Program-made: the position numbers and the translations under genes
Notes under the pieces: model-generated
Told to the model about the DNA's origin: nothing
Databases searched by the model: none
Seen by the model: the letters and a program-made list of their open reading frames with translations, nothing else
Shown: positions 2,826 through 64,000 of the stretch, one piece after another
Layout of the letters: each line of letters starts with the position of its first letter
Position numbering within the stretch: the stretch's first letter is position 1
Source of the DNA: Procambarus clarkii
Taxonomy: Eukaryota; Arthropoda; Malacostraca; Decapoda; Cambaridae
Length of the DNA stretch: 64,000 nucleotides
Assembly: GCF_040958095.1 (NCBI RefSeq)
Contig: NC_091154.1
Coordinates: forward strand, 46,670,232 to 46,734,231
Direction of reading: 5' to 3'

Positions 2826-3787
2826 TTTGAATTTATTTAGTTATATATTTATTTATATACAAGAAGGTACATTGGGTTTGTGAGAATACATAGCATGGTA
2901 TTTACACTCTTGTAAAACCACTAGTATGCGCATCTTTTCGGGCACAGGTCCTCAATCTAACAGATAATTTTTAATAGGTAAATTCTAGCGGAATTAATAA
3001 AAATGATAAAAGATACATTGTATGAAAGAAAAAAATGAGATGAGAGAGATTAGTAGGTATATTAAAGTACATTGGTATATTAAAGCTCTGATTGATTGCA
3101 TTGACAGCTTGATTGGTAATTTAAACGAAGATTAATAGGCATCATAGAGCAAATTGATAAATAATAATAAAATAAATAAATAAATGTTTATTTAGGTAAG
3201 GTACATACATACAAGAAATTTTTACAAAGATTTGTTGACTTATAGGTAGAGCTAGTACATACAATGCCTAAAGCCACTATTACGCAAAGCGTTTCGGGCA
3301 TCATCATCATCATCTATATGATAGCACATATATAAGAAGACAGCAATGATGACATTGGTAAAGTTGTTTGGATTGGGTACATGAAGATTGGGAGATTGGG
3401 TAGCACTAGATACAGTGCAATTTTAAAGCAACAAGGTAGAAAACTATAAAGATGAAATTAGGTATTTTTTTAGTTTTGTATTTGAATGACGCAAAAGTTG
3501 GACAGCTTTCATTAGGGAGTGAGTTCCATAGACTGGGTCCCTTTATTTGCATAGAGTGTTTACACAGATTAAGTTTGACTCTGGGGATATCAAAGAGATA
3601 TTTATTTCTGGTGTGGTGATAATGGGTCCTATTACATCTGTCCAGGGAGAGTTTCAGAGCAGGATTTGCATTTAAGAACAGGGTTTGAAGATGTAGTTGA
3701 CACAAGAGAATGTGTGGAGTGAGATTATGTTTAGCATGTTTAGGGAGTTAAACAAGGGGCTGAGTGTTATCTGAAAGCAGAAATAGT
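2826..3787 (-). mobile_element. LINE-A 3' fragment (ORF2 C-terminus and 3' UTR)
   Basis: 3787-3406 encodes the ORF2 C-terminal tail (HHTRNKYLFDIPRVKLNL), matching the LINE-A copy at 10,273-10,590. The 3' UTR follows and ends with the family signature near 2940 and an AAAT-type tail near 2840. A LINE-B tail (3,178-3,311) interrupts it. Confidence 0.85.
3178..3311 (-). mobile_element. LINE-B 3' tail, strongly 5'-truncated insertion
   Basis: Reverse complement carries GCCCGAAACGCTTTGCG, then CTTACCTAAATAAACATTTA and an ATTT-type tail. The flanking sequences both belong to one LINE-A 3' UTR, so this is a nested insertion. Confidence 0.8.
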
Positions 3788-37430: not shown

Positions 37431-37847
37431 CAACTAATCTTTGCTTGTTAGCTCTAAATTTCAAGGAGGGAAGAGCCAGCCCGGGTGACCAAAGCTGCCA
37501 CAAGCCAGTTCTTGAATTAGAAAAGTCGTCAAGCAGAGGGAGTGTGACAGGAAGTCTCCAGGTCTCCCCCAGAAACTGGCATTTCATTATATTCAACGCT
37601 AGTTTTCTGTGGGGAGCCCCGTCGGCTACCTAAAGCTATCTATCCACATAGAAGGAAAAACTGGGACTTACCAGGGAGGCAGTAGCCCCAAGCCAGGAGT
37701 GTGAACCAGAAATCTGGCAGCCAAAACCCTGGTAAACCTCCAAAACCCCCGTGCTCGAACATCGTCCCAAGACGCACTCCCAAACACAGTCATGGAAACG
37801 GCATACTTCTCCATCTCACGGGCAAGAGGCTAGACCGCAGGCTGGCT

Positions 37848-38216
37848 TTAATGAATGACACAGCAGACAACCTGAGACACACGAACCCTGGAACAGTGAA
37901 CCAGGGAAACCGGATCAACCCACAGTGCGCTCACCAACCCAGAATCGGTAGCTAATAGGTAGAGATGTAAAGCTGCTACCGGACATAACACATGATGCAC
38001 CCCGGTCAAACCAGCCAAGCATCTACAACCACAGGACCCAGGACCCCCTCCAGAGCCCGTCATCTCAATCTTCGCCACAAAAGAAGGAGCCGGCTGTAAC
38101 CTAACAAAATGACTACCAGGACCAAAGCCACCAAAAACAAGGCTTTCCAAAAACAGTCCTGAACTGAAGGGTCCACCACAAACCGAGGTCAAGAAAGAAA
38201 AGAAAACCCAGTCCAA
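37848..38216 (-). pseudogene. DIRS tyrosine recombinase fragment (old copy)
   Basis: FVRLQPAPSFVAKIE, GVHHVLCPVAALHLYL, ALWVDPVSLVHCSRVRVSQV: aligns with the middle of the recombinase at 55,496-56,570. The catalytic tail is missing or out of frame. Confidence 0.75.
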
Positions 38217-44945: not shown

Positions 44946-45950
44946 CTAAGGGAAACAAATAATTTCAATTGATTCGACTTGACTTGCATTTTCTTTGTGG
45001 GTTTTAATATGTGATAATAGAGAAGATTTCACTGTAAAGTTTTTTAAACATTCTGAGCACTGATATGGTTTTTCTCCTGTATGAATTCTTGTGTGTGATA
45101 CTAAAGCATTTCTCTGTGAAAAAGCTTTATAACACACAGAACACTGATATGGTTTCTCTCCTGTATGAGTTCTCAAGTGATATCTTAGATCAGATCTATT
45201 TTTAAAACTTTTAGTGCATATGGAACATTGATATGGTCTCTCTCCAGTGTGAGTTCTCGTGTGTGTTACTAAAGAATTTTTATATGAAAAGCACCTGAAA
45301 CACTCTGGACACTTATATGGTTTCTCCCCTGTATGAATTCTCATGTGTAATACTAGACTGCTATTTTGTGTAAAACATTTTGCACACTCTGAACACTTGA
45401 ATGGTTTCTGTCCAGTATGAAGCATCATGTGTGTCACTAAAGAATTTTTATGTGAATATTTCTTTAAACACTTTGGACAGTGATATAGCCTTTCCACTGT
45501 ATGAGTTCCCTCTCTTGTATGAGTTTTCAAGTGGTTTAATAGAGACAATTTATATGAAAATGTTTTCATGCACTCTGAACATTGATACGGTTTCTCTCCT
45601 GTGTGAATTCTCATGTGCGAGTCTAGACCGTTACTCTGCGTAAAACACTTTGAACACACTGAACACTGATATGGTTTCTCACCTGTGTGAGTTCTCATGT
45701 GTTTTGTTAGTGAAGAATTTAGTGAAAAGCATTTTAAACACTCTGAACACTTATATGGTTTCACTCCTGTGTGAATTCGCATGTGTGTTATTAAGCTGCT
45801 ATTTTGGGTAAAACATTTTGAACACTCTGAACACTTGTATGGTTTCTCACCTGTATGAGTTCTCATGTGTGCTATTAGGTAATAATTTTGTTTACAGTCT
45901 CTTAAACACACTGAACATTGGTAAGGTTTCTCTTCTGGCTGTGAACTCAT
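44946..45950 (-). CDS. C2H2 zinc-finger protein, 11 fingers, intronless
   Basis: I start the protein at the ATG at 45,950 (MSSQPEEKPYQCSVC), 334 residues; the frame is open 33 codons further up (to 46,049), but those residues are hydrophobic and unlike the family. Eleven fingers follow CX2CX12HX3H, nearly all joined by TGEKPY-type linkers; finger 1 has Cys in place of the usual hydrophobic core residue (RDCKQNYYLIAH), and the finger 5-6 linker is longer (TREGTHTVERLY). The short tail ends NASQVESIEIICFP. Tandem fingers with conserved linkers indicate sequence-specific DNA binding in the nucleus, probably transcription regulation; targets are unknown and no effector domain is visible. It is the only long host-type reading frame in the window. 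Confidence 0.85.
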   Translation of the reverse strand: MSSQPEEKPYQCSVCLRDCKQNYYLIAHMRTHTGEKPYKCSECSKCFTQNSSLITHMRIHTGVKPYKCSECLKCFSLNSSLTKHMRTHTGEKPYQCSVCSKCFTQSNGLDSHMRIHTGEKPYQCSECMKTFSYKLSLLNHLKTHTREGTHTVERLYHCPKCLKKYSHKNSLVTHMMLHTGQKPFKCSECAKCFTQNSSLVLHMRIHTGEKPYKCPECFRCFSYKNSLVTHTRTHTGERPYQCSICTKSFKNRSDLRYHLRTHTGEKPYQCSVCYKAFSQRNALVSHTRIHTGEKPYQCSECLKNFTVKSSLLSHIKTHKENASQVESIEIICFP

Positions 45951-46038
45951 TTTTAATAAAAGATAATATTTTAGGTTTTTCAGCCACACTACTAATATGG
46001 TGTCATTTGTGAATATTATTATGTTATACAGGAGCTTA

Positions 46039-46095
46039 AGTATGCACAAACCTTTTTTGGTATAATGAACAATGATATGGTTTCTCTACAATATA
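46039..46095 (-). pseudogene. Decayed zinc-finger unit upstream of the array
   Basis: The minus-strand frame at ~46,090 reads EKPYHCSLYQKRFVHT, the first half of another C2H2 finger with Tyr replacing the second Cys. It is out of context with the open frame, suggesting the array was longer or duplicated. Confidence 0.5.
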
Positions 46096-50683: not shown

Positions 50684-51930
50684 ATACTGTAAATGTTCAC
50701 TAATCCGGACAATGTGCTTATCCGGCCAAAATTGCCTCCAAATAATGCTATATCTCTATTCGGATGGAATGTCCATAGACTCCAGATGACCGGAGATTTG
50801 TCCAGATCAAAGTATACTGATAGAGAGTTTAAATCGAATTCGGTTAACTTTCTGCTGATGTGACCCTATCCGGACTGTAATCCAGACCGGAGATTATTCC
50901 GGATAAGAAAGTCAGGCATCAGGCCATACCATATTAATCCTGTACGGCTGTAGTTCGAGGCTCGTGGTATAGTAGGTGTTGGGGTGGGTGGGTGGTGTTG
51001 GATGAGAGAGGAGAGTTGGGAGGGACTGCCTAAGGATTAGGGGGCATGTGGAAGGGGCCTATAATTACCAATAATTTTAGAACAATTCATCACAGTAAAA
51101 AATTAAAGAAATATTCTCTAATACTGTATTATAATTAATAAAAGTTTCTGAAAAACAAATATGCACAGGCTGAAGTTGCCTCCTAAAATTTTGGGAGTTT
51201 TTTCCACCTGGTGGCCTACGTAATGTGCCTCCCTGCCCCAAGTGGACCCGTCCAGGCATGATCAAGGAAAACAGCCCATGTGCTCCCGACCCTCGGGTTA
51301 TACTACAGTGCCGTGCCATTGGTGAAATATTTTCTGAAATAATTTTTTTGTGTTCACAGTAACTTTGATAATTTTTGTTTGCCAACCCTATGTCTGGTAG
51401 CAGCTGGAGGTGTTAAGGGAAAGAAGGTTACCCTAACAATTAAGGACCAGTTATATTTTATAGAACTCTTATAAGAGTGGCCGGTCGGCTGTGAGTGTTG
51501 CCAAGGACTTTAATATAGGCACTAGTACTGTTTCTAATATAAGGAAACAAAAAGAGCCTTCAACCAGTGAGGCTTCAGTAGCTGGCAGTCAAAACTGACC
51601 TTGCCAAGCTCATGTATTGTACAGTAATTTTAAGCGTTAATTTTAGTGTTGTGTTATAATAGGTTACGTAAATTGTCAAGAATTCTTAACTTCAAGATAT
51701 GTAGCATCACTCAAGAGAATGAATTACAACAAGGTAAGTTGAGGTTTCTGTTTAAAATATTAATTATAGTACTGTACAGTACTTGAATATTTTATAATTA
51801 TATGTGGCAATTCAAATTGTGTTGGTTGTAGTACAAAATTTTTTGGAAATGTTCACTTTTGGACTTACCCGGTAAAACATCCTTTGATTCGGATGACAGG
51901 CCTATCCAGACGGGAATCCTTCCCCAACCT
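50684..51930 (+). mobile_element. Second Tigger/jerky-type element, relic
   Basis: The left end CTGTAAATGTTCACTAATCC with TCCGGACAATGTGC; the right subterminal region at 51,837-51,925 (TTTTTTGGAAATGTTCACTT) resembles 50,486-50,575 of the neighbouring element. Between them lies a jerky-like helix-turn-helix remnant. Confidence 0.55.
51418..51595 (+). pseudogene. Jerky/Tigger transposase N-terminal HTH remnant
   Basis: GKKVTLTIKDQLYFIELL, then after a +1 frameshift SGRSAVSVAKDFNIGTSTV and SNIRKQKE: the CENP-B-type N-terminal helix-turn-helix that binds transposon ends. A stop follows soon after. The DDE domain is absent from this relic. Confidence 0.75.
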
Positions 51931-51939
51931 GTCCTCTTA

Positions 51940-52560
51940 CAAATTACGTCTGAATTTGGCCGTTTGCCCATGTGGCTGAAAATGGACGTAATTTGAAAAT
52001 AACAAAATTTAAATTTAATTAAAAAATATTTTTCTTTCCAAAACAGCAAGTTAAAGGTCCTCTGGTAGGTTAGGAGGGCAAGAAGTTCTCCTAAGGTTTC
52101 AAAAGTCATGAAAACCGTTAATTGAACATTTCTTCTCCTAACCTAACCGAGTAAGCCGGAGGACTCAAAACAGAAAATGAGACAGTACATCACTTTCGTG
52201 AGCTGATTTCATTTCAAATTACGTCCATTTTTGGCCATAGCGTGCATACGAGCGAAAAGCAAAGCAATTTTAACACTCGCACTCTTCGAACGCCCCTGGG
52301 GGTGCAAAATTTTTCTCTTTTGTCAGAGTCGTGGACGCAAGTGGAGTCCATCATTTGAAAATATTTATTACAAATTTAAATTTTATCCGATCAATCTAGG
52401 AGTGGTTTAAACACTTTCCCACACCGATGTCGCGAGCGTCGTCATCTGTTTTTTTTCCCAATTGTGAACGGATGACAATCCTCGCGTCATCCTTTAAAAT
52501 ATTTGTAAAAAAATAAATTTTCATCCGATCAACTTCTTTGTGGTTTCAAAATGAGCGCCA
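51940..52560. other. Upstream region of the fusion ORF with repeated ACGT-core words
   Basis: CAAATTACGTC occurs at ~51,940 and ~52,216 and inverted (GACGTAATTTG) at ~51,987, giving a ~22-bp inverted repeat across ~230 bp. Two GATGACG/GTCATC-rich blocks (52,430-52,500) resemble each other. Promoter elements could lie here but none is clear. Confidence 0.45.
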
Positions 52561-52740: not shown

Positions 52741-54816
52741 ATGATGGATCAGGGTCAAGGACAGAGCACTTCAATGCCGAAAAAAACAAAGAAATCAACC
52801 AAAGAGGATAAACTAAGTATGCTCTACCGTAAATTTCGCAGACTTTGGCTTACACCAACAAAAATCCCAGGTTTGATTCAAGAATTATCCGATATTGACT
52901 CAGATATTGAGGCAGAAGAACGGGTCAGTGATTTCAACAGTGATACAAAGATGGCAGATGATAGTGAGTCAACAGTTGAGGAGGGTGAGGAAAGTGAGGA
53001 TTCTGAGGAGGAGGACAAGGGACGTCCACAGCCTCCTATTCGAAAGCGTGCAGGACATACTCAACAAACAGATCCTGCAGATGCCTGGTGTACTGACAAC
53101 ACTCCGCCATCTGTAGACAGTTTCACTGGAACACCAGGCATGACTATACCAACACCTACCACGCCTATACAATTTATACAATTATTTCTGACTCGTGCAT
53201 TGATTGAATATTTGACGTTTGAAACAAACTTGTATGCAGAACAATTTATACAGAATGCTTCCGTGAGTGCAATGAGTATGTGGAAAGAAGCATCTGTAAA
53301 GGAAATGGCACAATATTTGGGTTTGTCCCTGCTGATGGGTGTTGCAACACTCCCAACGATGAGAATGTACTGGCAAACAACCCGACTGTGGCATATGCAT
53401 ACCTTCAATACTTTCATGATGGTGAAACGATTCACGCATATTGGCCAGTTTTTTCATAGTTATAATAACAAGGCCATTCCCCAGAACAGTAAAGACAAAT
53501 TGATAAAAGTTCACACAGTGATGACCTATCTTACCAGCAAATTTGCCAAAATATACATTCCCAAGAAAGAATTTTGTTTTAATCAAACAATATTTACGGA
53601 CTGGTTTGAAAACAACTTTTGCAAAGAAGTCAGAGAATTCCAGATCAACAAATGTGGAATAAAGGCCAGTGAGGTTAAGGCATTGTTGCTGCTAGATAAT
53701 GCCTCTGCTCATCCCATTAGCAAGTTAATTTCAAGGGATGGCAGAATAAAATGCATGGCACTTCCACCAAACACAATATCCTTAATCCAGCCCATGGACC
53801 AAGGTGTTATCCTTGCTGCTAAACGTATGTACCAAACAGCAATGCTTGAAGATGTTTTAGTTATTTTACCTAGCGAGGAAGATGAATTGACAGGAAAGGA
53901 TACAAGGGCTCAAAGAACACTAGAAAATCTAAAAAAGTACACAATCAGGGAAGCAATATTCCACTGGGCTAGGCTTTGGAATAAAGTGAAAGACACGACA
54001 CTAACAAATTCATGGAAGAAACTGTTAACAGAGAGGCCTAGATGTGATGCAGCAGTATCTGGTAGTGAATTCGAAGGTTTTGAAAATGAAGCCAATGATT
54101 TTGAAGGGTTTGAAGAAACGGTCCGAACAATGTTGCTCCAAGCTGGTCAGGGTGTACAAGTGAATGATATCAATGAATGGTTAGAAAATTATTACGATCC
54201 TGGTTATGAATTGTTAACTGAAGAACAGATTGCGCAAAGTGTTCTCGGAAATGACTCTGATGACTCTGATGATGACTCGGACGATGTTGGTGAGGCTCTG
54301 CCTAGAGGTGTCGGATATCAGAAAAGATTGGAACAAGTTGAGGAACTCATTGAATGTTCAAGAAAAAGTAAACATGAGGTTGTTGGACATTTTTATGTAC
54401 ACTTTACAGCCTTTAAGCAATGTCTCAGAACGTTAGCCAGAGAAAATCAGATTCAGACAAAAATAGATAAATTCATGATTTCAACGGTTCGTGAAAAATC
54501 TTCGTCGACAAGCCCTGCTGCACCCGCCGATGCAGAATTACCATCGAGAAGTCGTGGAGCATCCGCCGACAACGAATGCTCTGCAAGCCATGCTGCACCC
54601 GCCGATGCAGAATTACCATCGACAAGTCGTGGAGCATCCACCGGCAACGAATGCTCTACAAGTCATGCTGCACCCGCTGATGCTGAATTCCCACCAACAA
54701 GTCATGGAGCATCTGCCGGCAACGAATGCTCTACAAGCCATGTTGCACCCGCCGATGCTGAATTCCCACCAACAAGTTGTGACAAGTCATCCACTAACGA
54801 TATAAAATATGATTGA
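52741..54816 (+). CDS. Chimeric transposase-derived protein: piggyBac N-half fused to jerky/Tigger C-half
   Basis: ATG at 52,741 (MMDQGQGQ), 691 residues, one exon, no stop. Residues ~51-96 are acidic (DIDSDIEAEE ... EEGEESEDSEEED), as in piggyBac N-termini. Residues ~142-276 match the piggyBac N-terminal/dimerisation region: PIQFIQLFLTRALIEYL, EMAQYLGLSLLMGVATLP, MYWQTT, FMMVKRFTHIGQFFH, IYIPKKE. At ~277-281 the match switches to jerky/Tigger DDE_1: FTDWFENNF, ALLLLDNASAHP (D319), LPPNTISLIQPMDQGVI (D353), YTIREAIFHWARLWNKV. PiggyBac's first catalytic Asp and everything after it, and jerky's HTH and first Asp, are absent, so catalysis is unlikely. The C-terminus has four 25-residue repeats. 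I infer a DNA-binding or regulatory role, or a recent fusion not yet decayed. Confidence 0.85.
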   Translation: MMDQGQGQSTSMPKKTKKSTKEDKLSMLYRKFRRLWLTPTKIPGLIQELSDIDSDIEAEERVSDFNSDTKMADDSESTVEEGEESEDSEEEDKGRPQPPIRKRAGHTQQTDPADAWCTDNTPPSVDSFTGTPGMTIPTPTTPIQFIQLFLTRALIEYLTFETNLYAEQFIQNASVSAMSMWKEASVKEMAQYLGLSLLMGVATLPTMRMYWQTTRLWHMHTFNTFMMVKRFTHIGQFFHSYNNKAIPQNSKDKLIKVHTVMTYLTSKFAKIYIPKKEFCFNQTIFTDWFENNFCKEVREFQINKCGIKASEVKALLLLDNASAHPISKLISRDGRIKCMALPPNTISLIQPMDQGVILAAKRMYQTAMLEDVLVILPSEEDELTGKDTRAQRTLENLKKYTIREAIFHWARLWNKVKDTTLTNSWKKLLTERPRCDAAVSGSEFEGFENEANDFEGFEETVRTMLLQAGQGVQVNDINEWLENYYDPGYELLTEEQIAQSVLGNDSDDSDDDSDDVGEALPRGVGYQKRLEQVEELIECSRKSKHEVVGHFYVHFTAFKQCLRTLARENQIQTKIDKFMISTVREKSSSTSPAAPADAELPSRSRGASADNECSASHAAPADAELPSTSRGASTGNECSTSHAAPADAEFPPTSHGASAGNECSTSHVAPADAEFPPTSCDKSSTNDIKYD
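54518..54790 (+). repeat. 75-bp coding tandem repeat, ~3.6 units
   Basis: Units beginning near 54,521, 54,596, 54,671 and 54,746 encode variants of AAPADAELPSTSRGAS and a NECSTSH linker. The spacing is exactly 75 bp, so frame is kept. Confidence 0.95.
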
Positions 54817-54837
54817 AAGGCATACAAATTAGTGTAA

Positions 54838-55405
54838 AAAACCAGCGTTGAATGTAATGAAACGCCATTTTCTGGGTGAGTCCCGGAGGCTCCCCGGAGC
54901 TATCCCAGGCTGATATGCTAATGTCAGACTTTGGCATCAGTCATGTGTATGGAGTTCTTAGGCCTACCGGGGACCACGGCCAGAACCGGGCCCCCTCAGA
55001 GAGGCAAGGGGAGCAATGGCCTATAGAAGCCCCCGTGTATAGTTGGAAGCATTCTATGTCTGCCATCGACCGGAACAGGCACCCAGAAAGGTAAGCGCCT
55101 CAAAACAAACCCCTATTCTGGTTAAAATTGCTACCATAAACCGAACTAGTGGATAGAACTCCCCAACCGAAAACAAGCAAACTAGTGTGACGTCACACAC
55201 CGCCGCACCGCTGTCTGCGCAGCTCCCCCCTCCCTGGGAGGGGGAAGGGGGAGCCCCAGACCCCCCGCGCCGGCTACCCACACCTCAGTTCTTGAGGTTG
55301 GATGTCAAAAACACAAAAAACCGCCGACCGGAGGGAGGGAGGGATGCCGGGGAGCCTCCGGGACTCACCCAGAAAATGGCGTTTCATTACATTCAACGCT
55401 GGTTT
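54838..55405. repeat. DIRS right terminal repeat and internal complementary region
   Basis: AAAACCAGCGTTGAATGTAA at 54,838 and its inverse at 55,386-55,405 belong to a ~62-bp near-perfect inverted repeat separated by ~440 bp. In DIRS1 elements such a region pairs with the element ends to template circularisation; the position between recombinase and right end fits. Confidence 0.75.
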
Positions 55406-55495
55406 TCTGGGGGGAGCCCTGTCGGCTCCCCGGAGCTAACTACCCACAGACAGAAAAAAGAGGGACTTACCCGGGAGGCGGTCGTCGCTCACTCC

Positions 55496-56570
55496 TCAAC
55501 TCGAAGCCGAGACAACTGGCTGCAACCGCCGACCCAAAGCAACACAGGCCCGACGAGGCCCAGGGACATTCACAAGGTAACGAGCAGCCAGGACCCTGTT
55601 TGACCGCCAAAATCCCCGCGCCCGAATATCAGACCAAGACATATTCCCAAAGACGGCAGCAAGAGCCGCGAACTTACGAACATCATGGGCACGGGGATAG
55701 ACAGCAGGCTGGCTGGACTTAATAACCCTGCGGACAACCTGAGAGATCCGAACCCGCGAACAGGGAAGAAGGGAAACCGGATCAACCCACAGCGCGTCCC
55801 CAGACACAGAAGCTGTGGCGCGCAAATAACGGCGAAGCGCCGCAACCGGATACAAAACATGATGCACCCCCGGCCTGACCAACCAAGCATCAACCACCCA
55901 TGGACCCCTCCGGAATGCAGCAGTCTCATTCTTTGCCAGAAAAGAAGGAGACGGCTGCAAACGAACAAAACAATCACCACGACCAAAAGAGCAGAAACCC
56001 CTGCGCCGGAGGAGAGCATGAAGCTCCCCTACCCGACCCCCAGAGGCCAAAGCCAACAAGAAAAGTGCCTTGGAAAAACAATCCTGGACCGAAGGGGCCA
56101 CAACGAAACGAGGAGATGAAAGGAAAGCGAGCACTCTGTCCAAAGACCAGGACAGCTCAGGCGACGCATGAGCAGGCCGGAGGTGAAACAATGCACGAGA
56201 CAGCTTGCGAAACGGCGCAGACGTAACATCGATACCGAAAGCAAGCTGAAGCGGCTCCGCCAGCGCCGCACGATACGAAGCGACAGTGTTAGGCATAAGA
56301 TGACGGTCCTGAAACAACCACGAGAGGAAGGACAAGACCACCCGAACAGACAAGGAGCTAACACGATGAAGACGCAAAAAGAAACGGAAGGACCGCCAGG
56401 AAACTTCATACTGCCGCCGAGAAGAAGCCCTCAGGTGGGACACCAACAAGGAGGCCACCTGATCACCATAGAGATGATGATAGACTCGAGTCAAAAAAAC
56501 CATACACGAAGACTCGAGGAGAAGATCAAACCAGCCACGTGACGTACCGGCCCGATCTGCTGAAAGAGGC
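55496..56570 (-). CDS. DIRS tyrosine recombinase
   Basis: The frame is open from 57,151, but the first ~190 codons overlap the RT frame and look like shadow; I place the real start region near 56,570 (ESSCMVFLTRVYHHLYGD). Features: a core-binding-like part (SLLVSHLRASSRRQYEVSW), then the catalytic domain: SGGRVGELHAL (Arg), RAHDVRKFAA (His-x-x-Arg) and GFWRSNRVLAARYLVNV (nucleophile Tyr). It would integrate the circular cDNA by site-specific recombination without target duplication. No methyltransferase domain is seen. The frame is intact to the stop at 55,496. Confidence 0.85.
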
Positions 56571-58710
56571 GGAGCCGCGGGAAAACCCTCGGGTTCGGAC
56601 ACCGAGCAACCAGCGCCTGAAACCAAGGCTGGGCCGGCCACCAAGGGGCCAGAAGGACAACTCTCCCCTGGTAAGTCTCTAAGCGAGTCAGGACCTGGAG
56701 CAACAGCCGAACCGGGGGAAAGAGGTACAGGAACCCCCACCTCGACCAGTCTAGCCGAAAGGTATCGACCCCGACGGCCTCGCGATCGGGGAAGGGCAGC
56801 GCATAAACGGGAAGACGCCGCAACCACGCCGACGCGAAGAGGTCCACTTCGGGGCGCCCGAACGTCTGGCAAAGCCAACGGAAGGACTCGTCGTCGACCG
56901 TCCACACCGTGGAGAGGGGAACGAAGCGAGACAGGGCGTCGGCCAAGACGTTGGACACGCCCCGTACGTGAACCGCCAGGAGAGCCAAACCCCGAGAACT
57001 CAGCAGACGAGTCACCCGAAGCGACCAACCCCAAAGAGACAAGGACCGCATCGAACCCCCGCGGTTCAGGCAATGAACCACCGGAGAGCAGTCCGAATGG
57101 AGCCGAATCGTCGCTCCGCGGGCCACCCAAATCCTCCCCAGAGCAAACCACATCGCCGAGAACTCCCGCACCGTGCTGTTAGCTCGACGGAAGGACGGAT
57201 CCCAACGCCCCTGGCCAGCCTGGTGAGCACTGGTCACAAAACCCCAGCCGAGAGACGACGCATCCGTGTACACATCGAGCGAGGGCTCGGGTAGGCGCCA
57301 AGGCACTGAACCCCGAAAAACCCGAAGAGGAAGCCGGTGACGCAGCAACCGACGCAAGGCCCCCGGGGGTCGAACTCTGCAATCGCGAGAGAGGCGGAAG
57401 GGGGAACCCCGAAGGAACCAGAACAGCCGTCGAAGCCAAACCCGACCCGGCGGGTAGACCACCATTGCGAAGTTCAGGCTCCCGCACAGCCCCTCGAGCA
57501 ACCGCCGGGTGACCCGAGGGCCCTCCAGAAACAAACGAAGGCGGGACCGCAGCCGCAGGAGAGACTCCGGAGGGAGAGACAAGGAGGCGGTTCGAGAGTC
57601 CCAAACGAGACCCAGCCAAGTTCGAACCTGAGAGGGAACCAGATGGGACTTCCTCCAGTTCACCAAGAACCCGAACTCGGCGAGCCGGGAAAGAACCAAA
57701 TCCCTGGCTAGCAAGCAAGCTGACTGGCTGGGAGCCCAAACCAGCCAGTCGTCGAGGTAGGCCAACACCCGAACACCTAGGAGACGCAAACGAGCCACCA
57801 CAACCCGTGTAAGGCGCGTGAACACGCGAGGTGCCAGGTTCAACCCAAACAGGAGACAACGAAAACGGTAACTCAGACGCCCCACAACAAAACCGAGCCA
57901 GTCCCTGAACCGCGGATGAATCGGGACATGCCAATAAGCGTCCCGGAGGTCCAGGGACACCATCCAAGCTCCCGGCTCCAAGAGGAGCCGAACCTGAGAC
58001 AGCGTAGTCATCCGAAAGGAGGGGCAATGAACCCAGGGGTTCAGACGGGACAAGTCCAGAATGAACCGCAGGTCCGCACAGTCCCGTTTCGGAACCGGAA
58101 ACAGACGGGAAACCCATCTAAGGGACGACGTCGTTTCGACGACGCCCAAGCGTACCCACTCCAAGATGACTCGACAGAGCGCAGAGGAAGAAACCTGCCC
58201 TGCCAGCCCCGACCCCCCCAAAGGTGGAAGGGGCCACCCAACGCCACTGCAGGCCGCGAGACACGACCCGAAAGGCCCACGAATCGTGGGACCAGGCGCG
58301 GGCGAACAGCGCAAGCCGCCCCCCATCGCCCCGCCAAGGGGGCAAACCGCGAAAGGGCCGGCGACCCTTACGAGACCCAGAACCCCGCACAGCGCGAACA
58401 CCGCGCCGACCAGACGAGGGAGGGTCCGCAGGAGGAGCCAACCCCAAACCTGACACCAGAGGCCTACCACGACGAGAGGAATCCCGAGCCCTGGCACGAC
58501 CTTTCCGGGAAGACCCACCCCGGGACCCCCGGAAAACCAACAAGTCTGACATCGGACGACAAGCCGCCGACGCAGCCTGAATAAACTGCGCCATGGCCGA
58601 CTTCTCAAACAGGAGAGGACAAAAAGGTGAAGAACACCTAAGAGCCAGAGCCCAAGCAGATTCCACGGAGGAATCCAGCACCGCCTGCTGACACGCGAGA
58701 CGGGAAGCAT
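56491..58710 (-). CDS. DIRS reverse transcriptase / RNase H
   Basis: 739-codon open frame; the first ~190 codons overlap the Gag frame and may not be translated. RT motifs: RLFPVPKRD, LRFILDLSRLNPWVHCPSF, MVSLDLRDAYWHVPIHP, CLLFGLNLAPRVFTRL and LAYLDDWLVWA (catalytic YLDD). Then RNase H: LDVYTDASSLGWGF, STVREFSAMWFALG, IRLHSDCSPVVHCLNRGG and SNVLADALSRF. It ends with a segment overlapping the recombinase frame (LIFSSSLRVWFF). This is the DIRS order; frame overlap is common in the group. It would copy the element RNA into cDNA. Confidence 0.85.
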   Translation of the reverse strand: MLPVSRVSRRCWIPPWNLLGLWLLGVLHLFVLSCLRSRPWRSLFRLRRRLVVRCQTCWFSGGPGVGLPGKVVPGLGIPLVVVGLWCQVWGWLLLRTLPRLVGAVFALCGVLGLVRVAGPFAVCPLGGAMGGGLRCSPAPGPTIRGPFGSCLAACSGVGWPLPPLGGSGLAGQVSSSALCRVILEWVRLGVVETTSSLRWVSRLFPVPKRDCADLRFILDLSRLNPWVHCPSFRMTTLSQVRLLLEPGAWMVSLDLRDAYWHVPIHPRFRDWLGFVVGRLSYRFRCLLFGLNLAPRVFTRLTRVVVARLRLLGVRVLAYLDDWLVWAPSQSACLLARDLVLSRLAEFGFLVNWRKSHLVPSQVRTWLGLVWDSRTASLSLPPESLLRLRSRLRLFLEGPRVTRRLLEGLCGSLNFAMVVYPPGRVWLRRLFWFLRGSPFRLSRDCRVRPPGALRRLLRHRLPLRVFRGSVPWRLPEPSLDVYTDASSLGWGFVTSAHQAGQGRWDPSFRRANSTVREFSAMWFALGRIWVARGATIRLHSDCSPVVHCLNRGGSMRSLSLWGWSLRVTRLLSSRGLALLAVHVRGVSNVLADALSRFVPLSTVWTVDDESFRWLCQTFGRPEVDLFASAWLRRLPVYALPFPDREAVGVDTFRLDWSRWGFLYLFPPVRLLLQVLTRLETYQGRVVLLAPWWPAQPWFQALVARCPNPRVFPRLRLFQQIGPVRHVAGLIFSSSLRVWFF

Positions 58711-59380
58711 AAAACAGGGAAACCGTATCCCGCAAAATCGGCGTGAACAGCTTCAACAAGGCAGCCGACGAACACGCAGCCGAGGACAAGGTACCGGACC
58801 CCGGGACGGACCCAAGCGTCCCCACATCCTCCATGAGCCAATCCGAAGACAGCTCCAGGAGGGAAAAGAACCGCAAGGCCGAACTCAAAAGGCCCCGGGC
58901 GCGCAAGTCCTCCACAACGAGCACCGCCGAAAGGGAGGGAACCTGCACATGGAGCTGAATAACGCCCACATCGCGGGAAAGGGCAGGGGCAAACAAGCAC
59001 TCATTCAGGTACTCAAGTTCGCCCCCCAGGAAAACATGAAGCACCGTGGAAGCTTCCCGCCACTCCAGCGTGTGGGAACGACAGAAGGAATGCCAGGAAT
59101 CCAGACCAAACAAGGGGCAGTCTGCTAGCCAGGACGACTCCGGAGCCTCGTAACGGAGCCAGAAAGGGAACGAAGTCCCAAACCTGAACGTGGACGGATT
59201 CATTTCCGAGGCATAATCCGGGTCACGCAGGAGGTAAGCTGCAAAGGCCGCTCGCACCACACCAGGTTGGATGCGATAAGCCGAAAACCTCCGGAAGGAC
59301 ATAACCGACGTACCCGGGGAAACACGGAACCGAACCCGGGGAGGGGCCGACACCAAATCCAACTCGTACGCAGAGGGGGA
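58118..59380 (-). CDS. DIRS Gag-like protein, main frame
   Basis: Open for 414 codons from 59,362 (the listed first codon is TTG; no clear ATG start). Segments shared with the old copies: CRSHTLEWREASTVLHVFLG, VIQLHVQVPSLSAVLVVEDL, LKLFTPILRDTVSLFYASRL and ESAWALALRCSSPFC. The C-terminal third is Arg/Gly/Ser-rich (RGGSSRKGRARARDSSRRGR), suited to nucleic acid binding. It overlaps the RT frame by ~590 bp. Upstream Gag sequence continues in another frame to ~60,288. Confidence 0.7.
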   Translation of the reverse strand, partial: SPSAYELDLVSAPPRVRFRVSPGTSVMSFRRFSAYRIQPGVVRAAFAAYLLRDPDYASEMNPSTFRFGTSFPFWLRYEAPESSWLADCPLFGLDSWHSFCRSHTLEWREASTVLHVFLGGELEYLNECLFAPALSRDVGVIQLHVQVPSLSAVLVVEDLRARGLLSSALRFFSLLELSSDWLMEDVGTLGSVPGSGTLSSAACSSAALLKLFTPILRDTVSLFYASRLACQQAVLDSSVESAWALALRCSSPFCPLLFEKSAMAQFIQAASAACRPMSDLLVFRGSRGGSSRKGRARARDSSRRGRPLVSGLGLAPPADPPSSGRRGVRAVRGSGSRKGRRPFRGLPPWRGDGGRLALFARAWSHDSWAFRVVSRGLQWRWVAPSTFGGVGAGRAGFFLCALSSHLGVGTLGRRRNDVVP

Positions 59381-59454
59381 AAAGAAAACCCCACTCCTTG
59401 TAACAATAAGCCCCGCTCAGTGGGAAGAAAAACCCAGGCGGGGTCCAGCGGGGC

Positions 59455-60288
59455 CTAAGGCCCCCAAGTCAGCCCCTCCCCAGCCTCGAGGTCCTTCACC
59501 ACAGGACCCGAGGCCGAGTCCTCTCCCCAAGCCCCGACCCCACAAGACAAGGACGGAGCAGCCGGAAAAGCTGGAGAAAGGGGGGCCCACTGGTCAGACC
59601 CTGAAGCTTCGGCCGGGAGACAAGACTCGAATGCCAATGCCGCCCCACCGGAAGGGGCATCCCCCGAAGCTGCCCGAGTCTCGAAATCAAGTAACCCCTG
59701 CTCCAACCCCGAAACCCTCAGACGCTTCGGGGCCGGAAGCAGGGGCGGGGGACCAGAACAAACAGAAGGGGAAGGACGAGGAGGTGCGGACTGAACCAGG
59801 ATCGAAGCGACCCCCACCCCCTAGTCCGGGTCTCGAAAAGCAAATCGGGGCAGCCCCGGGGCATCCGGGGAAGCAACCAACCAAGCGCGTTGCAACAGAC
59901 GAAACCTAGACTGCAACGCACGCGCCGCCTGTACCCGAATCTATTCGGGTACATCAGAGGATTGGGTAAATTGAGTCACAAGCAAGCAGCAACACTCACA
60001 GGACTCAGGGTCGAAAGTATCACCGACCCAACAGGCAGCGTGGCAGAGGCAAAAACAATGAGGGTCACCCTGAGACAAGGGGACCGAGCAACCCTCAAAC
60101 TCGCACACAGAGAGTGGGGACTCCGGGGTCACATCCATCGGACCCACGCGCCCCCTAGGGGATTCCCAGGGTCCTGAGCGCTTACTTGAAGAGGACTCGC
60201 GCTCAGGTAGTCCCAGGCAGGGTGCTGCAAACCGGCGCCCAAAACTACCAAGCAAACTTCTAAAGCTGAACCCCAGGGACGTGTACAC
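59455..60288 (-). pseudogene. DIRS Gag N-terminal region with three in-frame TAG codons
   Basis: One frame of ~278 codons from 60,288 to 59,455 contains only TAG stops (59,941-59,943, 59,821-59,823, 59,455-59,457). It encodes a Cys-rich part (SVCEFEGCSVPLSQG ... HCFCLCHAACW ... DPESCECC) that could bind zinc, then a Pro/Ala-rich part. A frameshift separates it from the main Gag frame near 59,380. Confidence 0.5.
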
Positions 60289-60435
60289 TCACGGGGACCT
60301 AGCAGGGGGCGCCACCGAGGAGAACAGTGGAAGGGCAAAAACAAACTGAATAAAATGACAGAACCCCCCACCAGGCAAAAACAAAAAGAAAAACAAAACC
60401 CTGCAAGAGGACAGCAAACCCCAAGGAACAAGTCT

Positions 60436-62852: not shown

Positions 62853-62854
62853 TA

Positions 62855-63040
62855 TTTTATCGTTAGCAGAGAAAAGGTGAGCTCAAAATATTTTGCCTTG
62901 GCTAGCTCTCAGTGACAAGGCTCGATCGCCATTGTTATTGCCTGGCCGCCACAGCCTGTGTCGTAACATTAAAAATACATTACTTGCACTGTTCAGGGTA
63001 AATCAAAACACATCTCTAAAATTTTATTGAGAAAATATTA
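62855..63040. other. Spacer, no feature recognised
   Basis: Unique-looking sequence between the Tigger-type end and the satellite. Confidence 0.4.
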
Positions 63041-64000
63041 ACACTTTCGCGCTCTCGGCGCTCAAAAAAAAACAATACCCCAGATGCTTTCGGCACTTCG
63101 CGCGCCTACGCGGTAAGACCGAAAAAGTGTACACTCTTTTGACTGTCCTGACAACAATTGAAGGCGCACGTATTTAAATTTGGTATCACTGTGTTCGCAA
63201 TGAAATTGTCTATAAGAGCATACCTATAAAATGCCGCCCAAGCATAAGGAGTATCAACACCAAATAAAAAATTATGCAGATCACTCGCCGAGAGCGCCAA
63301 ACAGCAACAAAATGTTTCCACTCTCTTAATGGTTGCGAAGCCTACAGTTGTCCTACATCGCTAATTTTGGTGTCATTGGAATCGCAATAAAATTCTCTAC
63401 ACGGACATATGCATATGAATGTTTAATATAGGTAATTGCCCACCCGCAAGAGTGTGTGAAGTGGAGAGTAGTTAGCCGCGAGAGCACTGGCGAAAACACA
63501 GGGGGGAAATCATGCTTGGAAAGTTTATACGTTTCCTGACCCTACTTTTCTATGTACGTATTTCTTTTTTATACCAATGTGTTCGCAATAAAATTTTCTA
63601 TAAGATGAACTGTATAACATTTGTACAAAGCATGTGTAAGAGAAGCACCAAATATAGAACCATGTCGCTCAGTATGCGTTCGCGGCAGAAACGAACGCAT
63701 TGTTTTCGTTCGTTTGATGTTTGTCATGTTTATACTTGTTGAAACATTTTATAATTTGTATGACAGTGATCGCAGTAAAATTCCCTACACAGACATATAC
63801 ATAACACATACAAATATTTCCCACGTGTTGGATATATCAACGGCTATAGGGAACCCACTGCCACACGCTCGCCACACCCCCAAACATACTTTGTGTATTT
63901 TTTTTTTTACTCATAGAAGTTTATGTGATATAATATTCATTCTGGTACCAAAAAATTCGCAAATAAATTCTCTACAAAACAAAAGTATCCCCATCCATTT
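63040..64000. repeat. Diverged ~190-bp satellite, five units, running off the window
   Basis: TTCGCAATAAAATTCTCTA and close variants occur at 63,193, 63,382, 63,582, 63,769 and 63,956, at spacings of 189, 200, 187 and 187 bp. Each is followed by a CATA-rich word and preceded by a T-rich word. The units between are diverged. Confidence 0.85.

Follow-up and report, generated by a model that had tools for sequence, protein, structure and literature searches.

Does an intact open reading frame that joins domains of two transposase families mark a new gene, or can it arise as an accident of transposon sequence? The question is raised by a frame in the 64,000-nucleotide stretch of Procambarus clarkii DNA that we analysed (the window), the parts of which are as follows.

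52741 to 54816, plus strand: 691-codon chimeric open reading frame, delimited by translation and a Pfam profile search.
52741 to 53577, plus strand: piggyBac-derived coding part, comprising an acidic N-terminus and, by homology, the first segment of the dimerisation/DNA-binding domain (DDBD), and stopping just short of the first catalytic Asp.
53578 to 54816, plus strand: jerky/Tigger-derived coding part, comprising DDE_1 profile positions 55-177 and an acidic, repetitive C-terminus.
54505 to 54781, plus strand: in-frame direct repeat with 75-bp spacing in the C-terminal tail, present also in jerky copies; its length may vary, since match ends differ among those copies.

From stop to stop the frame spans 721 codons, a length with a chance probability of ~3e-21 at the local base composition, and the 691-codon frame has both a start and a stop codon. 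Scanned intact, the protein matched the piggyBac profile DDE_Tnp_1_7 (E 6.6e-25, residues 141-306) and the jerky/Tigger profile DDE_1 (E 2.1e-18, residues 281-425). When the halves were scanned alone, the left matched DDE_Tnp_1_7 at residues 141-276 (profile 1-126 of 349) and the right matched DDE_1 at residues 282-425 (profile 55-177 of 177), placing the switch of family at residues 277-281. These data bear out the first-pass annotation, which had described one 691-codon frame passing from piggyBac to jerky/Tigger within a few codons, and they answer its question of whether the whole frame belongs to a single known family: two Pfam families were found in the whole protein as in the split one. 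Among solved structures, phmmer matched the N part to piggyBat (9c0f) and returned no match with E <1 for the C part. Single-sequence structure prediction of the frame gave a mean pLDDT of 37 and was set aside. No relatives of the frame were found in viral contigs, prokaryote genome contigs or phage records.

The genome of the same animal contains relatives of both parts. A six-frame search of the 4.03-Gb genome with the whole protein listed 74 matches, with 64 of 14076 candidates scored, and among those listed the window alone covered residues 1-691. The other 73 begin at residue 264 or later, are 78-92% identical and in many cases lie in long open frames; the main matches mostly begin at residues 268-269 and are near 90% identical, with an internal stop in 10 of 63. 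The right part of the frame is derived from a young, high-copy jerky transposon, with ~95% DNA identity to its copies. Twenty copies were compared together with their flanks (the best eight and twelve more among the matches listed). Several are broken by later insertions, and a full-length element of ~3.4 kb is common to them, exemplified by L010 2616-5986 (3371 bp), which has the inverted ends TATCCACTCAATTTAACGGCC. Pfam profiles identified CENP-B_N, HTH_Tnp_Tc5 and a complete DDE_1 in copy L003.

Window positions 53575-54840 correspond to positions 1241-2515 of the jerky element, and the sequence to the right of the frame is arranged as follows.

54817 to 54840, plus strand: first part of the jerky 3' UTR, ended by the next insertion.
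54838 to 60430, minus strand: retroelement; one frame encodes reverse transcriptase (RVT_1), and another has a weak match, under the Pfam cut-off, of the integrase type.
62853 to 63042, plus strand: further jerky 3' region (element positions 2882-3071).
63038 to 64000, no strand assigned: element of ~1.08 kb with ends CACTTTCGCGCT, situated at a TTAA within the jerky 3' region and extending to position 121 of the flanking locus L029.

Element positions 3060-3371, including the 3' terminal repeat, are found just beyond the window at L029 111-441. The jerky 3' pieces therefore run in element order to the terminal repeat at L029 441, separated by the retroelement, other repeats and the ~1.08-kb element; element positions 2516-2881 were not found in these remaining pieces. 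The retroelement, which we take to be of the DIRS type, carries within it inverted repeat arms at 54838-54897 and 55347-55406, and related stretches lie at 37536-38126. Judged from its ends and the TTAA, the ~1.08-kb element is probably of piggyBac type; a 97% similar stretch adjoins a jerky 3' end in L012. Elsewhere in the window, an open frame of 379 aa at 44946-46085 on the minus strand contains ten zf-C2H2 stretches (Pfam).

The 5' part of the jerky element has no match within the window apart from chance hits of 14-19 bp. Degenerate jerky-like helix-turn-helix sequence, apparently frameshifted and from a different jerky family, was read by eye at 51400-51600. We considered whether this sequence at 51.4-51.6 kb could be the lost N-terminus of the present copy and rejected the idea, because the jerky 5' part gave no match at that place. 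In L032 (8669-8842), ~64 kb upstream of the frame, there is a jerky 5' end of 175 bp and 89% identity, which probably belongs to another copy.

Relatives of the left part are more distant. A search with residues 1-267 listed 149 matches, with 144 of 3980 candidates scored; among the matches listed, other copies reach at most 72-76% identity to these residues, and large groups follow at ~60-65% and 46%. The nearest of sixteen relatives that were fetched (L036, L037, L034, L044, L033 and L039) differ from the window by 14-19% in DNA, and none of the sixteen is a parent copy with a difference below 14%. One of them, L033, has DDE_Tnp_1_7 over profile positions 2-349 together with zf-Tnp_2 (Pfam) and contains one stop near its start. 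The DNA upstream of the frame start resembles the 5' region of the piggyBac relatives, and three features were distinguished there.

51925 to 52273, no strand assigned: small element with the end CAACCTGTCCTCTTA, seemingly broken at the TTAA at 52270-52273; L016 matches 51925-52259.
52274 to 52406, plus strand: fragment, identified by eye, that resembles a second piggyBac-family 5' end, running from the TTAA at 52270 to the TTAA at 52407.
52407 to 52430, plus strand: likely piggyBac 5' end, identified by eye as a TTAA (52407-52410) followed by ACACTTTCCC.

The sequence AAACACTTTTGYG occurs near the corresponding place in two of five relatives (L037 and L038) and was not seen in L033, L034 or L035. 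Positions 52349-52394 are repeated at 52488-52532. By eye, the layout of 52274-52406 looks as if a piggyBac had landed in the 5' region of a second one.

The point at which the two parents meet can be read almost to the base.

53575 to 53582, plus strand: junction, at which piggyBac relatives have GAGTTTGGATG, jerky copies have TGGTTTAATC and the window has TTGTTTTAATC.

Over a longer alignment the corresponding sequences are AAGAAAGAATTGAGTTTGGATGAAGG in the piggyBac relative L037, TCTAAGAAATCATGGTTTAATCAAACAATATTTACGG in the jerky copy L009 and CCCAAGAAAGAATTTTGTTTTAATCAAACAATATTTACGG in the window. The piggyBac sequence stops in a run of T, one base before the GAT codon of the first catalytic Asp, and the jerky sequence begins in the same run, so that ~2 bp at the join are common to both parents. 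A TTAA at 53579-53582, native to jerky, overlaps the junction; it is possibly a coincidence or the trace of an aberrant piggyBac event. Where L033 has KKELSLDEG, the window has KKEFCFNQT, and because the piggyBac sequence stops before the Asp codon, the Asn-Gln of the window is jerky-derived rather than a mutated Asp-Glu. The join sits inside a 60.8-Mb contig, and no second copy of it was found among the matches listed in the two genome scans (64 of 14076 and 144 of 3980 candidates scored).

Compared with piggyBac transposons of the same genome (L033, L034 and L037), the window is alike in residues 1 to ~278 and in some upstream DNA but has neither the catalytic domain nor the second DDBD segment, and the zinc finger and 3' end are missing as well. 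Its DDE_Tnp_1_7 match covers profile positions 1-126 of 349 (2-349 in L033), and zf-Tnp_2, found in L033, gave no match to the window frame with a limit of E 10 (Pfam). According to an excerpt of a report on piggyBac, the catalytic triad consists of D268, D346 and D447, the DDBD of residues 117-263 and 457-535, and a cysteine-rich domain at residues 553-594 binds the terminal repeat (PMC7351741). The window frame reads Asn where the first of these Asp should be, and the other two belonged to the section that is missing. The claim of the first-pass annotation that the dimerisation/DNA-binding part was kept needs correction: by homology with the domain limits in that excerpt, the first segment (117-263) is present and the second (457-535) is not. 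A piggyBac transposon with two terminal repeats in TTAA was likewise not found, the sequence to the right of the likely 5' end being jerky up to the jerky 3' end.

Compared with jerky/Tigger elements of the same genome (L003, L010 and others), the window is alike from residue ~280 to the end and in the 3' pieces with their terminal repeat but lacks the 5' part, CENP-B_N, HTH_Tnp_Tc5 and DDE_1 positions 1-54, which hold the first Asp. CENP-B_N and HTH_Tnp_Tc5, the DNA-binding domains of jerky/Tigger (pogo-like) transposases, are present in L003 and absent from the window frame (Pfam). DDE_1 is represented by profile positions 55-177 of 177, with two of its three acidic residues; the Asp in LLLLDNASAH and the Asp in QPMDQG are presumably the second and third catalytic residues of jerky. 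The first-pass annotation had noted that the first catalytic Asp is missing from both halves, and this agrees with the window's FCFNQT in place of the LSLDEG of L033 and with the loss of DDE_1 positions 1-54. Paired jerky terminal repeats are also lacking, as the 3' repeat lies at L029 441 and no 5' part lies within the window. With both triads incomplete and with the jerky helix-turn-helix and the piggyBac zinc finger lost, the frame would not be expected to act as a working transposase of either kind, nor should it move as a unit, since no matching pair of ends encloses it.

Is the frame nevertheless maintained by selection? Substitutions in the jerky part were counted over ~900 bp against the majority of the 20 copies, leaving out the repetitive tail from 54481. 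Nineteen sites differ from the majority (17 nonsynonymous, N, and 2 synonymous, S), and 14 of these are private to the window (12 N, 2 S); the 20 other copies have, in total, 58 N and 20 S private changes. For the piggyBac part we used the six closest of the sixteen fetched relatives and dropped the other ten as too distant. Private changes there number 23 N and 7 S over 819 comparable sites (13, 12 and 5 at the three codon positions; terminal branch 0.058). The same count gave 18 N, 15 S and one stop for L033, 31 N, 8 S and three stops for L034, 21 N and 1 S for L036, 3 N, 0 S and one stop for L037, 56 N and 25 S with no stop for L039, and 2 N and 0 S for L044. A stop-free piggyBac piece at such divergence is therefore not unique to the window, as the more diverged L039 is stop-free over its private changes. 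Both parts of the window together have 35 N and 9 S private changes, and the neutral expectation is ~2.7 N to 1 S at the assumed transition weight; when pooled, the N:S ratio divided by its neutral value has a 95% range of 0.68-3.4. The ratio is as expected without selection and, in this small sample, shows no sign of the purifying selection that a domesticated transposase gene would display; weak or very recent selection would escape a test based on 44 private changes. Most changes in the N part are probably older than the join.

An open frame of this length might itself be taken as proof of selection. We rejected this reading, since the N:S ratio is near neutral and stop-free survival by chance, though unlikely, would not be surprising in a frame of this kind: 1.90 stops are expected in the N part and 0.89 in the C part, and the chances of none are 0.15 and 0.41. 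Their product, the joint chance of a stop-free frame, is ~6%, a value that frameshifts would push lower and that counts less against fusion by accident because the frame was noticed for its openness.

These data lead us to conclude, with high confidence, that one deletion accidentally joined adjacent or nested piggyBac and jerky transposons in frame and that the product has not yet decayed. On the plus strand, a copy of piggyBac would have lain beside a young jerky/Tigger copy, or one of them within the other, and a single deletion would have taken out the C-terminal part of piggyBac together with the 5' part of jerky. The remainders would have met through the ~2 shared T bases with the frame retained, as would happen in one third of such joins, and stops and frameshifts would have been avoided so far by chance. 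We infer the single deletion, the order of insertion and the lack of any function. What supports an origin by deletion is the presence of relatives of both parents, the position of the join, the surviving jerky 3' end, the neutral ratio and the finding of no second copy of the join among the matches listed; against it stands the jerky TTAA at the breakpoint, which a plain deletion leaves unaccounted for. A recent, still undecayed fusion was one of two alternatives offered by the first-pass annotation, and it is the one that has survived, with 19 differences over ~900 bp in the jerky part and no purifying selection seen. An open frame of 749 codons, of a piggyBac type from another subfamily, lies ~0.7 kb past a jerky 3' end in the same orientation in L028 (reverse complement from 6755), the kind of neighbourhood able to give rise to piggyBac-jerky joins.

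The other alternative offered, a repressor or domesticated DNA-binding protein, would make the frame a newborn host gene in which the dimerisation segment from piggyBac works with the half-domain from jerky as a DNA-binding or repressor protein. In its favour are the 691 open codons, bounded by a start and a stop codon, and a promoter that could have been inherited, given that the upstream DNA is similar to that in front of piggyBac relatives, but we think it very unlikely in the face of the 35 N and 9 S private changes, the single copy of the join among the matches listed and the disappearance of CENP-B_N, HTH_Tnp_Tc5 and zf-Tnp_2. Domestication or a repressor function is thus not supported by the sequence evidence.

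The TTAA suggests another route, in which a truncated piggyBac fragment integrated at a jerky TTAA and the integration itself created the join. The site is native to jerky and overlaps the breakpoint, and the same jerky copy received another piggyBac-type insertion at a TTAA. Integration predicts, however, that the jerky 5' part should lie on the left, where the small element and the second piggyBac-type end were found instead, and the piggyBac piece stops within coding sequence without a terminal repeat; we therefore regard this route as very unlikely.

Still more doubtful is the notion that a putative transcript from the inherited piggyBac 5' region yields a product that pairs, by way of the retained segment, with intact piggyBac or jerky transposases of this genome and dampens them, although, if true, the product would be a newborn cross-family transposition inhibitor built from two unrelated transposases. 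That the join is an assembly chimera, not present in the animal, is the hardest to credit of all: both parents are repeats and can be misjoined, but the join lies within a 60.8-Mb contig, private changes occur on either side of it, and the jerky side finishes in the natural 3' end of its transposon, while the piggyBac 5' end looks natural as well.

The titles and abstract openings in the literature searched contain no description of a piggyBac-jerky fusion. CSB-PGBD3, as outlined in excerpts of two reports, is a fusion of a primate host gene with piggyBac (PMC2268245, PMC3459987). It resembles the present frame, as far as those excerpts describe it, in that piggyBac transposase sequence is joined to an unrelated protein, but it is formed by splicing, has a host gene as partner and is conserved, whereas the window frame is joined in DNA, has a transposase as partner and has not been seen to be conserved.

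Large, repeat-rich genomes are able to fuse the coding sequences of transposons by chance, and such a fusion is very probably seen here at an early stage, with the breakpoint and relatives of both parents identified. The parental copies, the lost modules and the N:S ratio argue against a new gene family. Biologically the fusion is ordinary, and it shows by example why an intact two-domain frame is not, taken by itself, evidence for a new gene family.
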